NCBI GenBank assembly: GCA_033763975.1
Contig: JANRJM010000011.1
Span: 1 to 64,000, forward strand
DNA from: Planctomycetota bacterium
GTDB lineage: Bacteria; Planctomycetota; Phycisphaerae; Phycisphaerales; UBA1924
DNA length: 64,000 nt
Direction: 5' to 3'
The translations under genes and the position numbers were made by a program. Below are positions 33,774-37,020 of the stretch, piece by piece (the stretch's first letter is position 1; each line of letters begins with the position of its first letter). The notes under the pieces are model-generated. The model did no database searches. It worked only from the letters and a program-made list of their open reading frames with translations, and was not told the origin of the DNA.

Positions 33774-35126
33774 TCAGCGCGCCGTCTTCGCGTTCGTCGC
33801 GCCCGCCGCCAGCACGGGCAGGGCCTTGAACGTGCCCTCGAGCACGGCCTTGCTGTCGGCCTTCATCCACGACTCCAGCACGCCCGCGTACACCGAGCGG
33901 AAGTCGATCTTGTACTTGAGGTCGCCGTCGTCCAGGTCCTTGAGCGACGGGTGCTCGCCCACGACGCCCCGGCGCACCATGGGCCCGAACAGGAACATCG
34001 GGGCCGCCGTCCCGTGGTCGGTGCCCTGGCTCTGGTTCTGCCCCACGCGCCGCCCGAACTCCGAGAACGCGACCGACAGGACGCGCTCGTCGGCGCGCTG
34101 CTCCTTCAGTTCGGCGTAGAACGCCCGCACCGCCTGCGAGAACTGGCCTAGGAGCTGCGCGTGGCGCCCCTGCGCTCCGCCCTGGCCGGCGTGCGTGTCG
34201 AACGAGCCCATGTTCGCGTAGTACACGCGCGTCTTGAGGCCCGCCCCGATCATGCTGGCGATCATCGAGAGCTGGCGCCCCAGGTCGCTGTTGGGGAACT
34301 GCGTCTTGGGGCGCTGCTCCACCGCCTTGCGGATCAGGTCGCTGGACACCTGCGCGTCGAGCGAGGTCCGCAGCAGGAACGCCGCGTTCGAGTCGGCGCG
34401 GGCGGCGTTGCCATCGCCCGACTCGCGCGTGTTGAGGCTCGAATAGCCCTTGCGGAGCGCGTCGTTCATTTCCTGCGCCGACCAGCGGAAGAGGTCCGCG
34501 GACTCGAACGCGACGGGCTTGATGCGGCGCCCTTCCATGGCGAGCGGGGCGGTGCGGCCGATGGCGATGCCGGGGGGCCCGGCGCCGGGCGTCTGGGCCG
34601 CCTCGGGCGTGCCGGACTCGCCCTTGCCAAAGCCGCAGCACTCGCTGTCGAAGTACTTGCCCAGCCAGCCGTCGCCGGTGGCGGAGGTGTCGGCGGTGTG
34701 CCAGATGTCCATGGACTTGAAGTGCGAGCGGTTGGGGTTGGGGTAGCCCACGCCCTGCACGACGCAGACCTTCCCGTCGTCGTACATCTCGCGGAGCGGG
34801 GCGAGCTGAGGGTGCAGCCCCACGCCGTCGGCCTTCGACAACTTGAGCACCTGGTTCTCGGGAACGCCGATCCCGGGCCTGGCGCGGTAGTACTCGGGCG
34901 CGCCGAACGGCACGACGGTGTTGAGCCCGTCGTTGCCCCCCGAGAGCTGGATCACCACCAGCACGTGGTCGTCGGGCACGCCGGGCACCGACGACAGCCC
35001 GCCCGCCGCGGCGTGCATCGCGAGCGCGGAGTTGTTGAGAAACGCCGGCAGCGTCGCCGCCGCCGACGCCATCACCAGCCCGGTGCGGAGAAACTCACGA
35101 CGCGTAAACGGGTTCTGCGTGCTCAT
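33774..35126 (-). CDS. DUF1501 family protein with Tat signal
   Basis: The 450-residue protein begins with a twin-arginine signal (FTRREFLRTGLVMASAAATL), so it is exported folded. The DUF1501 body follows: HVLVVIQLSGGNDGLNTVVP, PYGAPEYYRARPGIG-like text, MDIWHTAD, GWLGKYFDSEC, NMGSFDTHAGQ and FSEFGRRVGQNQSQGTDHG, AAPMFLFGPMVRRGVVG. DUF1501 belongs to the alkaline-phosphatase-like superfamily and the conserved Asp/His residues suggest a metal site. Hundreds of copies occur in planctomycetes, typically next to DUF1800 or PSCyt genes, but the reaction is unknown. Here it follows DUF1800 and the two heptamer arrays. Confidence 0.92.
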   Translation of the reverse strand: MSTQNPFTRREFLRTGLVMASAAATLPAFLNNSALAMHAAAGGLSSVPGVPDDHVLVVIQLSGGNDGLNTVVPFGAPEYYRARPGIGVPENQVLKLSKADGVGLHPQLAPLREMYDDGKVCVVQGVGYPNPNRSHFKSMDIWHTADTSATGDGWLGKYFDSECCGFGKGESGTPEAAQTPGAGPPGIAIGRTAPLAMEGRRIKPVAFESADLFRWSAQEMNDALRKGYSSLNTRESGDGNAARADSNAAFLLRTSLDAQVSSDLIRKAVEQRPKTQFPNSDLGRQLSMIASMIGAGLKTRVYYANMGSFDTHAGQGGAQGRHAQLLGQFSQAVRAFYAELKEQRADERVLSVAFSEFGRRVGQNQSQGTDHGTAAPMFLFGPMVRRGVVGEHPSLKDLDDGDLKYKIDFRSVYAGVLESWMKADSKAVLEGTFKALPVLAAGATNAKTAR

Positions 35127-35150
35127 GACGTCCCTTCCGCCCTCTTGCTC

Positions 35151-35197
35151 GTCCCCAGTCCCCAGTCCCCAGTCCCCAGTGCCCAGTGCCCAGTGCC
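35151..35197. repeat. Heptamer tandem array 1, unit GTCCCCA (about 6.7 copies)
   Basis: Four perfect GTCCCCA units are followed by two GTGCCCA variants and a partial GTGCC. Read in another phase the unit is CCCCAGT, which is the consensus of the cyanobacterial STRR1 heptanucleotide repeats (CCCCRRT). It lies 24 bp upstream of the DUF1501 start on its non-coding side. The period is not a multiple of three, so it is not coding for a peptide repeat. Confidence 0.95.
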
Positions 35198-35219
35198 TTT
35201 ATGTCTCTTCCGAATGCCC

Positions 35220-35282
35220 TAATGCCTAATGCCTAATGCCTCATGCCTAATGCCTAATGCCTAATGCCTCACGCCTCATGCC
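35220..35282. repeat. Heptamer tandem array 2, unit TAATGCC (9 copies)
   Basis: Nine consecutive 7-bp units: six TAATGCC, two TCATGCC and one TCACGCC, preceded by a degenerate GAATGCC and one extra C. It begins 23 bp after array 1 and ends 8 bp before the DUF1800 stop on the minus strand. Its base composition (near 50% GC) contrasts with the surrounding 70%. Confidence 0.95.
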
Positions 35283-35289
35283 TTCGTCT

Positions 35290-37020
35290 TCAGCACAACT
35301 GATACTCCGGCATCGCCGAGATGAGCAGCAGCATGCCGCTCACCGTCTCGTTGTTCACCGCGTTCTCGTTCGACCCGAGGAACGCGAGCAGTTCGGCGAC
35401 GCCCGCGCTGGGCGCCCAGCCCAGCGCCAGGCGCAGCAGCGCCTCGGCGACCGCGCGGGGCTCGCCCCGCCCCACGGGCGAGTCCTTCCCGTACGGCGTG
35501 AGCAGGGCCATCGCGTCGTAGGTCTGCGTCCGGGCCGTGGGGTCGTAGCCCCGCGGGCGCTTGCCCGCGATGAGAAACGCGAGCGTGTTCTGGCGCACGT
35601 AGTACGTCGAGGTGTTGATCCACGCCCGCCCGCCTTCCCAGCCCTTGACGCTGGGCGGGAACATCAGGCGCTGCCCCATCAGGTCCATCGCGTCGTTGAG
35701 GATCGAGAGATCGCGCACGGGCGTGTCGAGCGAGCGGCACGCGCCGACGACCAGCTGCACCGGGCTCTTGATCTGGTCGTTCATGAACCGGGGCTCGTAG
35801 AAGTGCTCGCTCAGGAAGAGCTTGCGCAGCACAGGCTTGAGTTCGTACTTGCCGCCCGAGAGCGAGATCGCCATCTGCCGAAGCACCGCGCGCTGCGCGG
35901 GGTCGAGGCCCTTGTCCCCGCCGCGCTCGTCGGGCGGGACGTCGGCGACGAAGTGGTGGTAGAGGCGCCGCGAGATGTACCGCGGGCACGCGGGCTGCGA
36001 GAGGATGATCCGCACGAAGTCGTCGCCGTCCCAGTTGCCGGTCTGCCCGAGGATCGTCTTCTTGCCGGTGTCGTGGTTGTCCTTCTCGAGCACGAACTCG
36101 TCGTCGCGGAACGTGTAGCCCGTCAGCGCCCGCGCGCCCTCCTTGATGTCCTGCTCGGTGTAGTTCCCCACGCCCAGCGAGAACAGCTCCATGATCTCGC
36201 GGGCGAGGTTCTCGTTCGGGCGGTTCTTGCGGCTGTCGTTGTTGTCGAGGTACGCCAGCATCGCGGGGTCGCGGATGAGGGCCTTGAGCAGGTCGGCGTA
36301 GCTGCCCACCGCGTGCTTGCGGAAGGTCTGGTTCTGCAGGAACATGTGGTACGAGTTCTCGATCGTGCGGTAGTTCGTCGCCAGCAGCCCGTGCCAGAAG
36401 AGCGTCATCTTCTCTTCCAGCGGGTTGGGCGTCTCGATCATCCGCGCGAGCCACCACTTCTGCACCTGCGTGATCTGGGCGCGGTCGTCGCGCTCGCGCC
36501 GCTCGCGCTCCAGGCGCAGGCGCGCGAGGGTTTCCTCGTCCTGGTTGCGCTGCGCCATGCGGTACGCCTGACGCTCCTGCTCGCTGGGCGGGCGCATGAT
36601 GTCGGGGTCGAACTCGCGCTCCCCGGGCCACGCGAAGTCGCTGGGCTTGTAGTTCACCAGCAGGTCGACCGCCTTCTCCGGGCCGATGTCCGCGAGGTAG
36701 CGCACCTGCTTCTCGTTCCCGCCCAGGCCCGCCCGCCACAGCAGGTGGCGCGCCTGCTCGTACCCGAAGTCCTTCCGCTTGATCGGGCGCAGCGAGGCCT
36801 CGAGCTTCTCATCGATCGGCGCCCCCGGCACCTCGTCCGTGGGCGCGGCCGGCGGTTGGTCCGTCGCGCTCGGTGCGGCGTTCGGTTCGGTGCCCGGCGT
36901 TGGTCCGTCAGGTTGGCGCATCGTCCCCTCCGACGCCGCCCCAGACGGCGGCCCCCGTGCCCAAGTCTCCGCGGGCTTCGAGCGCCCACGCACCGCCGAA
37001 CGCCCGCCGTCCGCGCTCAT
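35290..37020 (-). CDS. DUF1800 family protein
   Basis: DUF1800 proteins are large planctomycete- and proteobacteria-enriched proteins of unknown reaction, usually paired with DUF1501. The 576-residue protein has a disordered acidic/Pro-rich N-terminus (residues 1-75), then ARHLLWRAGLGGNEKQVRYL, EKMTLFWHGLLATNYRTIEN, RKNRPNENLAREIMELFSLG, VGNYTEQDIKEGARALTGYT, HDTGKKTILGQTGNWDGDDF, FLSEHFYEPRF, the DUF1800 blocks, and ends LLISAMPEYQLC. No export signal is obvious at this start. Downstream are the two heptamer arrays and DUF1501. It is probably co-transcribed with DUF1501 through the repeats. Confidence 0.92.
   Translation of the reverse strand: MSADGGRSAVRGRSKPAETWARGPPSGAASEGTMRQPDGPTPGTEPNAAPSATDQPPAAPTDEVPGAPIDEKLEASLRPIKRKDFGYEQARHLLWRAGLGGNEKQVRYLADIGPEKAVDLLVNYKPSDFAWPGEREFDPDIMRPPSEQERQAYRMAQRNQDEETLARLRLERERRERDDRAQITQVQKWWLARMIETPNPLEEKMTLFWHGLLATNYRTIENSYHMFLQNQTFRKHAVGSYADLLKALIRDPAMLAYLDNNDSRKNRPNENLAREIMELFSLGVGNYTEQDIKEGARALTGYTFRDDEFVLEKDNHDTGKKTILGQTGNWDGDDFVRIILSQPACPRYISRRLYHHFVADVPPDERGGDKGLDPAQRAVLRQMAISLSGGKYELKPVLRKLFLSEHFYEPRFMNDQIKSPVQLVVGACRSLDTPVRDLSILNDAMDLMGQRLMFPPSVKGWEGGRAWINTSTYYVRQNTLAFLIAGKRPRGYDPTARTQTYDAMALLTPYGKDSPVGRGEPRAVAEALLRLALGWAPSAGVAELLAFLGSNENAVNNETVSGMLLLISAMPEYQLC

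Follow-up and report, generated by a model that had tools for sequence, protein, structure and literature searches.

Tandem heptanucleotide arrays of bacteria are used as fingerprints and have been discussed as G-quadruplexes, and to our knowledge there is no agreed account of their origin. The cyanobacterial STRR1 repeats are said to have been given the consensus CCCCRRT by Mazel and co-workers in 1990. For Xanthomonas and Nostoc, the accessible text of Rehm et al. (2015, PMC4692102) describes G-rich heptamers of the types GGGNATC and GGGGA(C/T)T, the Nostoc unit GGGGA(C/T)T being the complement of a CCCCAGT-type unit, and reports a nearer 5' neighbouring gene and a preference for four units in both genera, as well as convergent pairs in Xanthomonas. 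The intervening sequences (IVS) of 23S rRNA genes, in the part of the source available to us, carry terminal inverted repeats that form a 28-bp stem and are excised by RNase III; tandem heptamers lie beside their S23p ORF in numbers that vary among strains, and the S23p proteins are described as being without known function (PMC4990558). Partial texts further cover the TAACTGA repeats of the Beggiatoaceae (MacGregor 2015, PMC4679880) and the REP/REPIN elements, which are palindromes of 20–40 bp, mostly with a GTAG/CGTC tag, and have been reported in Planctomycetes (PMC3733652).

The 64,000-nt stretch of planctomycete DNA analyzed here (the window) contains a gap of 163 nt between genes for DUF1800 and DUF1501 proteins, in which two heptamer arrays are found (Table 1). 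The first had been described in an earlier, sequence-only reading, and both its composition and its placement between these two genes were confirmed: on the forward strand it consists of four GTCCCCA units, two GTGCCCA units and a partial GTGCC (47 nt, 6.3 copies, TRF score 74). This score lies beyond the period-7 arrays of 200 dinucleotide shuffles of the window (best score 43; 74 reached in 0/200), while arrays of any period reached it in 12/200 shuffles, with a maximum of 94. The second array, which that reading did not contain, comprises ten AATGCCT units (71 nt, score 105) in the same orientation as the first. The orientation rule and the link to S23p genes presented below were likewise absent from it. 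An assembly artefact is unlikely, since the arrays are short and imperfect and many loci in other genomes have units of the same families.

Table 1 Features of the window around the two heptamer arrays (sense refers to the strand of the two genes).
Feature	Position	Strand	Remarks
DUF1501 gene (PF07394), next gene downstream in the sense direction	33774..35126	-	Profile match
Heptamer array 1	35151..35197	-	Sense: GGCACTG units, then GGGGACT units; TRF, shuffles
Spacer between arrays 1 and 2, 15 nt	35198..35212	-	
Heptamer array 2	35213..35283	-	Sense: GGCATTA/GGCATGA units; TRF
DUF1800 gene (PF08811), next gene upstream in the sense direction	35290..37020	-	Profile match; orthologues with the gap in relatives

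Both arrays show the general traits of the repeats of Rehm et al., having at least two tandem units of 7 nt with a G run and being dispersed and intergenic. In both, the G-rich strand is the sense RNA and points away from the DUF1800 stop codon, and the arrays are mutually direct, not inverted. A nearer 5' neighbour is found for array 2, which begins 6 nt after the DUF1800 stop codon and has 86 nt to its 3' neighbour, but not for array 1, which lies 95 nt from that stop codon and is separated from the DUF1501 start codon by 24 nt. On its sense strand, array 1 has four GGGG runs spaced by 3 nt and contains (GGGGACT)3GGGG. As for the traits of the 23S rRNA IVS, the window has neither an S23p ORF (no profile match to PF05635 within the window) nor complementary termini, which are found at other loci, and the arrays are flanked by two protein genes instead of lying in 23S rRNA. 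Rfam matched nothing at 34900–35500.

The sequence-only reading had suggested that such repeats may be more widespread and proposed a search of the genome and its relatives for CCCCAGT tandems; wider occurrence was borne out. In the own genome (3.27 Mb), tandems of CCCAGT and of TGCCTNA were found at 4 loci each, the window being included in each count and the reversed-pattern controls giving 0. Among 61 genomes (the own genome and 60 relatives), the more general pattern SCCYART (2.3 units) occurs in 23, spread over many genera of the order, patchy within a genus and with 226 matches in the richest genome; the reversed control matches 7/61, with 38 of its 57 matches in a single genome (G044) where the true pattern has none. 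A longer SCCYART pattern of 3.3 units is found in 22/392 genomes of the phylum, where single weak matches mean little because some genomes also score in the control. By eye, one relative's locus (L040) has the unit ATTGGTC, which we take to be the cyanobacterial STRR2 unit (TTGGTCA), beside GGGCATT units. In another genome (L286, G055) a unit with a heptamer array is present in three copies about 224 bp apart, near an apparent 16S rRNA gene. Runs of 68 and 25 G at L119:717-843, a region that also contains N, are probably an assembly artefact.

The arrangement of the arrays was analyzed in 40 planctomycete stretches from 7 genomes, the window included, by running TRF between genes called with our own codon-score script, a non-standard caller. 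Of the 113 TRF rows, 56 had period 7, 17 period 8 and 11 period 14, with many unit sequences, and period 7 accounted for 143/207 rows in 63 cyanobacterial loci; since SCCYART arrays guided the choice of the stretches and CCCCART that of the cyanobacterial loci, these period and unit counts are biased towards 7. The bias is smaller for the arrays with other units that these stretches contain and for unit counts away from the targeted places. Period 8–10 arrays were also seen between genes at L109, L116, L125 and L147 (CACAAAGAG, CACAGAGG, CACGGATGAA), some as inverted pairs, and these may be arms of the same kind.

A clear polarity was found: read outward from the nearest gene edge, 71 planctomycete arrays were G-rich against 9 that were not, and 94 against 9 in cyanobacteria. 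Arrays with at most three GG runs showed a similar polarity (11 vs 2 in planctomycetes, n=14; 33 vs 6 in cyanobacteria, n=45), which argues against G-quadruplex potential as the common factor. At gene starts alone it was weaker in planctomycetes (16 vs 6; 8/12 for single arrays), and in convergent gaps 31/32 and 17/19 of the arrays still read outward, so that selection through Rho against C-rich sense sequence, toxic after stops, is a needless assumption. In gaps with a single array, the 5' neighbour of the G-strand was the nearer one in 43/51 planctomycete and 45/63 cyanobacterial cases.

Where arrays neighbour each other in one gap, 50 pairs were convergent, 3 divergent and 19 direct. The unit sequence varies between elements and often between both arms of one gap, and by eye the arms are tandem and non-palindromic. 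SCCYART pairs within 150 nt comprised 12 convergent, 0 divergent and 1 direct, the last being that of the window. The two arms of the 12 convergent pairs were 0.673 identical compared with 0.531 for shuffled partners (fraction 0.001), and eleven of the 12 gave RNA folding energies of -44 to -83 kcal/mol (raw energies, without a shuffled baseline). One-step foldback copying of an arm was rejected, the arms being alike but seldom identical.

SCCYART runs of 3, 4 and 5 units numbered 5, 35 and 9 in all stretches and 2, 13 and 2 away from the targeted places, compared with 6, 3 and 1 for the reversed control in all stretches. In the four-unit arrays (n=47), agreement at three variable positions was 0.593 between adjacent units, 0.53 between arrays and 0.716 between first and last units, and in arrays of at least six units (n=29) adjacent units agreed at 0.788 and units of different arrays at 0.489. 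Long arrays thus look slippage-grown and four-unit arrays do not. The sequence-only reading had taken the switch from GTC to GTG for slippage after a mutation, which fits long arrays (at least six units) such as the two of the window, both longer than the four-unit mode, but not the commonest, four-unit arrays. The window suggested a gradient from GGC to GGG along the array, but this did not hold generally: C preceded G in 13 cases and followed it in 27, and GGC was the first unit in 70/92 and likewise the last unit in 70/92. The nearer 5' neighbour, the four-unit preference and the convergent pairs are confirmed and extended here, not discovered, as they have already been published for Xanthomonas and Nostoc (convergent pairs for Xanthomonas).

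The gap between DUF1800 and DUF1501 was compared among 30 orthologous loci, with the stretch retrieved for one of them (L089) not being the gap. No array pair of the window's type was seen by eye in the 28 other orthologous gaps, three of which measure 31, 31 and 42 nt (G002, G005 and G004). The gap of a genome from the same genus (G006) has a different inverted pair, of AAATGGC type, and another (G040) an inverted octamer pair, both by eye; the gap thus receives different arrays in different species. In two congeners (L083, L084) it holds another palindrome-like repeat of the GTAGGTCGGCTC...GAGCCGACC type (by eye). Elsewhere in G229, a stop and a start codon are separated by 78 nt that are taken up by a two-armed element, whereas G028, G093 and G153 have 9 nt at this place. 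Between groES and groEL (recognized by eye), two arms enclose a gene of 126 and 125 aa in G229 and G153, while the gap in G028 and G093 is about 80 nt long, without arms and without the gene. Elements have thus been inserted into gaps that are empty in relatives. For a further gap (L123) the flanking genes are non-adjacent in the relatives, and an empty site was not found there.

The gene in the groES-groEL gap belongs to PF05635 (23S_rRNA_IVP; E 1e-35 and 1.4e-37) and TIGR02436 (four helix bundle protein). One relative with a known structure is 2gsc (XCC0516), which appears to be the Xanthomonas campestris S23p structure mentioned in the accessible text of the IVS paper (PMC4990558); heptamers are also described from that species in the corresponding text of PMC4692102. 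We compared the flanks of 90 PF05635 genes, 30 from returned loci and 60 picked from the list for the 61 genomes, which are not all matches, with those of 670 control genes, using as flank score the local similarity of the 5' flank to the reverse complement of the 3' flank. A score of at least 20 was found for 54/90 PF05635 genes and 14/670 controls (Fisher 4.5e-45), or 6/326 controls when only those with intergenic flanks were considered (Fisher 1.5e-36), a contrast that is reduced by the controls having been drawn from the same array-rich stretches. Median scores were 22 for the 70 higher-scoring and 23 for the 20 lower-scoring PF05635 genes, and 10 for the controls. Both flanks were periodic in 47/90 PF05635 genes and 22/670 controls, and the best period among those tried (6–9) was 7 or 8 in all but 3 flanks, for which it was 6. 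Where a flank was periodic, the 5' arm was G-rich in 59/68 and the 3' arm C-rich in 50/59, which is the polarity of the gene-less pairs. Arms thus frame many PF05635 genes. They vary from element to element, yet both arms of one element match: the own partner arm scored better than at least 95% of the other elements in 61/90 and better than all others in 40/90. Seven of the 90 genes lie directly before a groEL-like start, with unit variants that differ between genera.

The own genome has four PF05635 genes. In one of them (L335), with a flank score of 16, the 5' arm is built of GGCATTC/GGGATTG units, which belong to the window's unit family, and the other three have octamer-type arms with scores of 22, 25 and 25. 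In a sample of 16 of the 41 PF05635 records from plasmids (15 cyanobacterial, one Gemmatimonadota), 8/16 genes scored at least 18, seven of them cyanobacterial; plasmids and genome scan together (21 loci) gave a median of 16, with 13/21 below 18, including all five loci of the genome scan. The clear cases of the plasmid set are Nostoc edaphicum (AGTAGGG / CCCTACT) and Nostoc C052 (GGGAACA / TGTTCCC), and at L421 and L212 the arrays are direct (by eye).

Some neighbourhoods of PF05635 genes were recorded in addition, those on plasmids coming from four loci. On three cyanobacterial plasmids (L420, L421, L425) the gene lies once between cas10 and a cmr3-family gene and twice between cas6 and cas4, and on a fourth (L417) between two ribonucleotide reductase genes. 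In three genera (L348, L349, L353) a DnaE-like frame (by eye) is interrupted by a PF05635 gene at one shared position, between LGLGMLTC and YDMIC-ADT-GVFQIE; octamer arrays flank the gene on both sides in L353, on the 5' side only in L348 and on the 3' side only in L349.

On account of the ORF, the complementary arms, the heptamers and the arm length shared with the 23S rRNA IVS, we propose that arrays of this class are arms of IVS-type elements, and we consider the two arrays of the window to be solo, slippage-lengthened arms of such a dispersed intergenic element with a probability of about 0.45. The basic element would have two arms in inverted order, each made of roughly four heptamers or in some cases octamers, with the G-rich strand of each arm reading from the flanking gene into the element, and the arms would enclose a short loop or a gene for a four-helix-bundle PF05635 (S23p) protein. 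The arms may act as an RNA stem that RNase III excises from the transcript, as published for the 23S rRNA IVS, and the PF05635 protein may serve the element. Gene-less pairs and solo arms, the window's two included, would descend from such elements; those of the window would later have been lengthened by slippage and would now act, if at all, as G-rich sense sequence between neighbouring co-directional genes. As the window has two gene-less, direct arms, we infer its own assignment from the unit family, from the way array 2 is oriented and from the related element with a gene that this genome also contains. Counting against it are the missing inverted partner arm and gene and the position of array 1 nearer to its 3' neighbour.

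That similar repeats frame a small intervening-sequence gene at many other places suggests that heptamer repeats form the ends of a selfish genetic element of wide distribution. In its most general and more tentative form, which we regard as possible, the proposal is that a single class of selfish RNA-stem elements, with the four-helix-bundle protein S23p/PF05635 as their carrier, supplies the arms seen as intergenic heptamers and octamers in cyanobacteria, Xanthomonas and planctomycetes. The elements would insert at gene edges and inside a polymerase gene, copying of one arm into the other would keep the two alike as the unit drifts, gene-less hairpins and solo arms would be relics, and the 23S rRNA IVS would be a special case in which the insertion hit rRNA. 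A literature search found, among its top-ranked matches, no published link between intergenic heptamer repeats and S23p/PF05635 genes, the nearest publication being the IVS paper, the available part of which mentions heptamers beside its own ORF (PMC4990558). The link would give heptamers and S23p genes alike a testable origin, namely joint arrival of arms and gene and RNase III cuts in mRNA; should it fail, the polarity rule and the four-unit mode would still demand explanation.

A serious rival, though in our judgement a less likely one, is that the arrays are plain G-rich heptamer microsatellites, arising and growing by polymerase slippage, tolerated between genes and capable of forming G-quadruplexes, beside which PF05635 genes have merely inserted. 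The oligonucleotide (GGGGACT)3GGGG, contained in the sense strand of array 1, is reported in the accessible text of PMC4692102 to melt above 95 °C in potassium, and the same text already gives the four-unit preference, the nearer 5' neighbour and the Xanthomonas convergent pairs for such repeats; the likeness of adjacent units in arrays of at least six units points the same way. This rival remains serious because few PF05635 genes were found near arrays in the array-directed searches (11 matches in loci L001–L325, duplicates included), because 5/23 genomes with SCCYART arrays lack PF05635, because similarity of at least 20 is missing from the flanks of 36/90 PF05635 genes, and because in only 12/18 cases did gene-bearing arms match gene-less arms of their own genome better than gene-less arms from elsewhere. 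The last comparison, which would have tied the two kinds of arms together within a genome, was not convincing and was dropped. PF05635 is present in 40/61 genomes, and with 18/23 of those that have SCCYART arrays and 22/38 of those that do not, it tracks the arrays weakly if at all. Against the microsatellites stand the similar polarity of arrays with few GG runs, the four-unit arrays, which are not internally homogenized, and the 78-nt two-armed insertion, which arrives as a block; nor would slippage be expected to place matching arms in inverted order around genes of a single family.

An improbable alternative is that the arrays belong to REP/REPIN- or MITE-like elements whose heptamers are iterons recognized by the transposase that moves them, be it a Y1 (RAYT) enzyme or another. 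The elements are dispersed, extragenic and inverted and have empty sites, a 43-bp array region has more than ten further matches in one genome (G055), and the own genome has 3 matches to Y1_Tnp; this domain, however, occurs in 47/61 genomes and thus cannot discriminate, and the unit differs between elements and often between the arms of one gap. Scars of DNA-end healing, in which broken ends were trimmed to gene edges, extended 3' by G-rich heptamers and joined like fused telomeres, would account for the convergent pairs and for the outward polarity of the G-strand from stops and, less strongly, from starts. We consider them very improbable, as Ku was found in 5/23 array-bearing and 4/38 other genomes and is absent from the richest, G017; Ku-dependent healing was accordingly rejected for lack of association with the arrays. 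End healing also does not predict gene cargo between arms, and the groES-groEL gaps suggest that arms and gene arrive together.

The unit CCCCAGT of array 1, which the sequence-only reading equated with STRR1, falls within the consensus CCCCRRT, which fits neither the GTGCCCA units nor array 2. In a search for CCCCART (3.7 units) with one genome per species, the matches listed (80) were mostly cyanobacterial, and those from elsewhere among them came from Caldilineaceae and Anaerolineae (Chloroflexota), Stenotrophomonas, Xanthomonas, Acidimicrobiia, Verrucomicrobiota, Pirellulales and others. The exact unit is thus no mark of cyanobacteria, and its occurrence in several phyla makes transfer from them needless. 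Horizontal import of STRR1 repeats into the planctomycete is hardly credible: the unit is identical and cyanobacteria provide most of the 80 matches listed, yet units vary within and between loci and the repeats occur in several phyla and many genera of the same order. Taken as a whole, the interpretation given by the sequence-only reading is partly supported.

Among the known systems, the TAACTGA repeats resemble the present arrays as intergenic direct heptamers at gene edges with 7-nt indels between strains, but theirs is one unit, mostly just upstream of start codons, and the accessible part of that paper gives no link to S23p. REP/REPIN elements, in the text available, are likewise short, extragenic, dispersed and single or close together, but they are palindromic whereas the arms here are tandem heptamers. 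The STRR1 repeats share the unit, as CCCCAGT fits and exact CCCCART was found in many cyanobacterial genomes among the matches listed; they differ in host phylum, and here GCCTAAT and GCCCAGT units are mixed in one array. The heptamers of Rehm et al. agree with the present arrays in the unit GGGGACT, the intergenic and dispersed location, the nearer 5' neighbour, the convergent pairs and the four-unit preference, but they were read as G-quadruplex repeats, whereas here the polarity is also found in arrays without G-quadruplex potential and arrays frame PF05635 genes; the planctomycete unit (SCCYART) is also wider than theirs. With the 23S rRNA IVS the elements share an S23p/PF05635 ORF between complementary termini, tandem heptamers and the arm length. 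RNase III excision is published for the rRNA IVS and may apply to the elements here; these are found in gaps separating protein genes, such as groES-groEL, or within a protein gene, often without an ORF. We thus assign the arrays of the window to the known heptamer-repeat class, and propose that arms of IVS-type elements are the likeliest account of this class.
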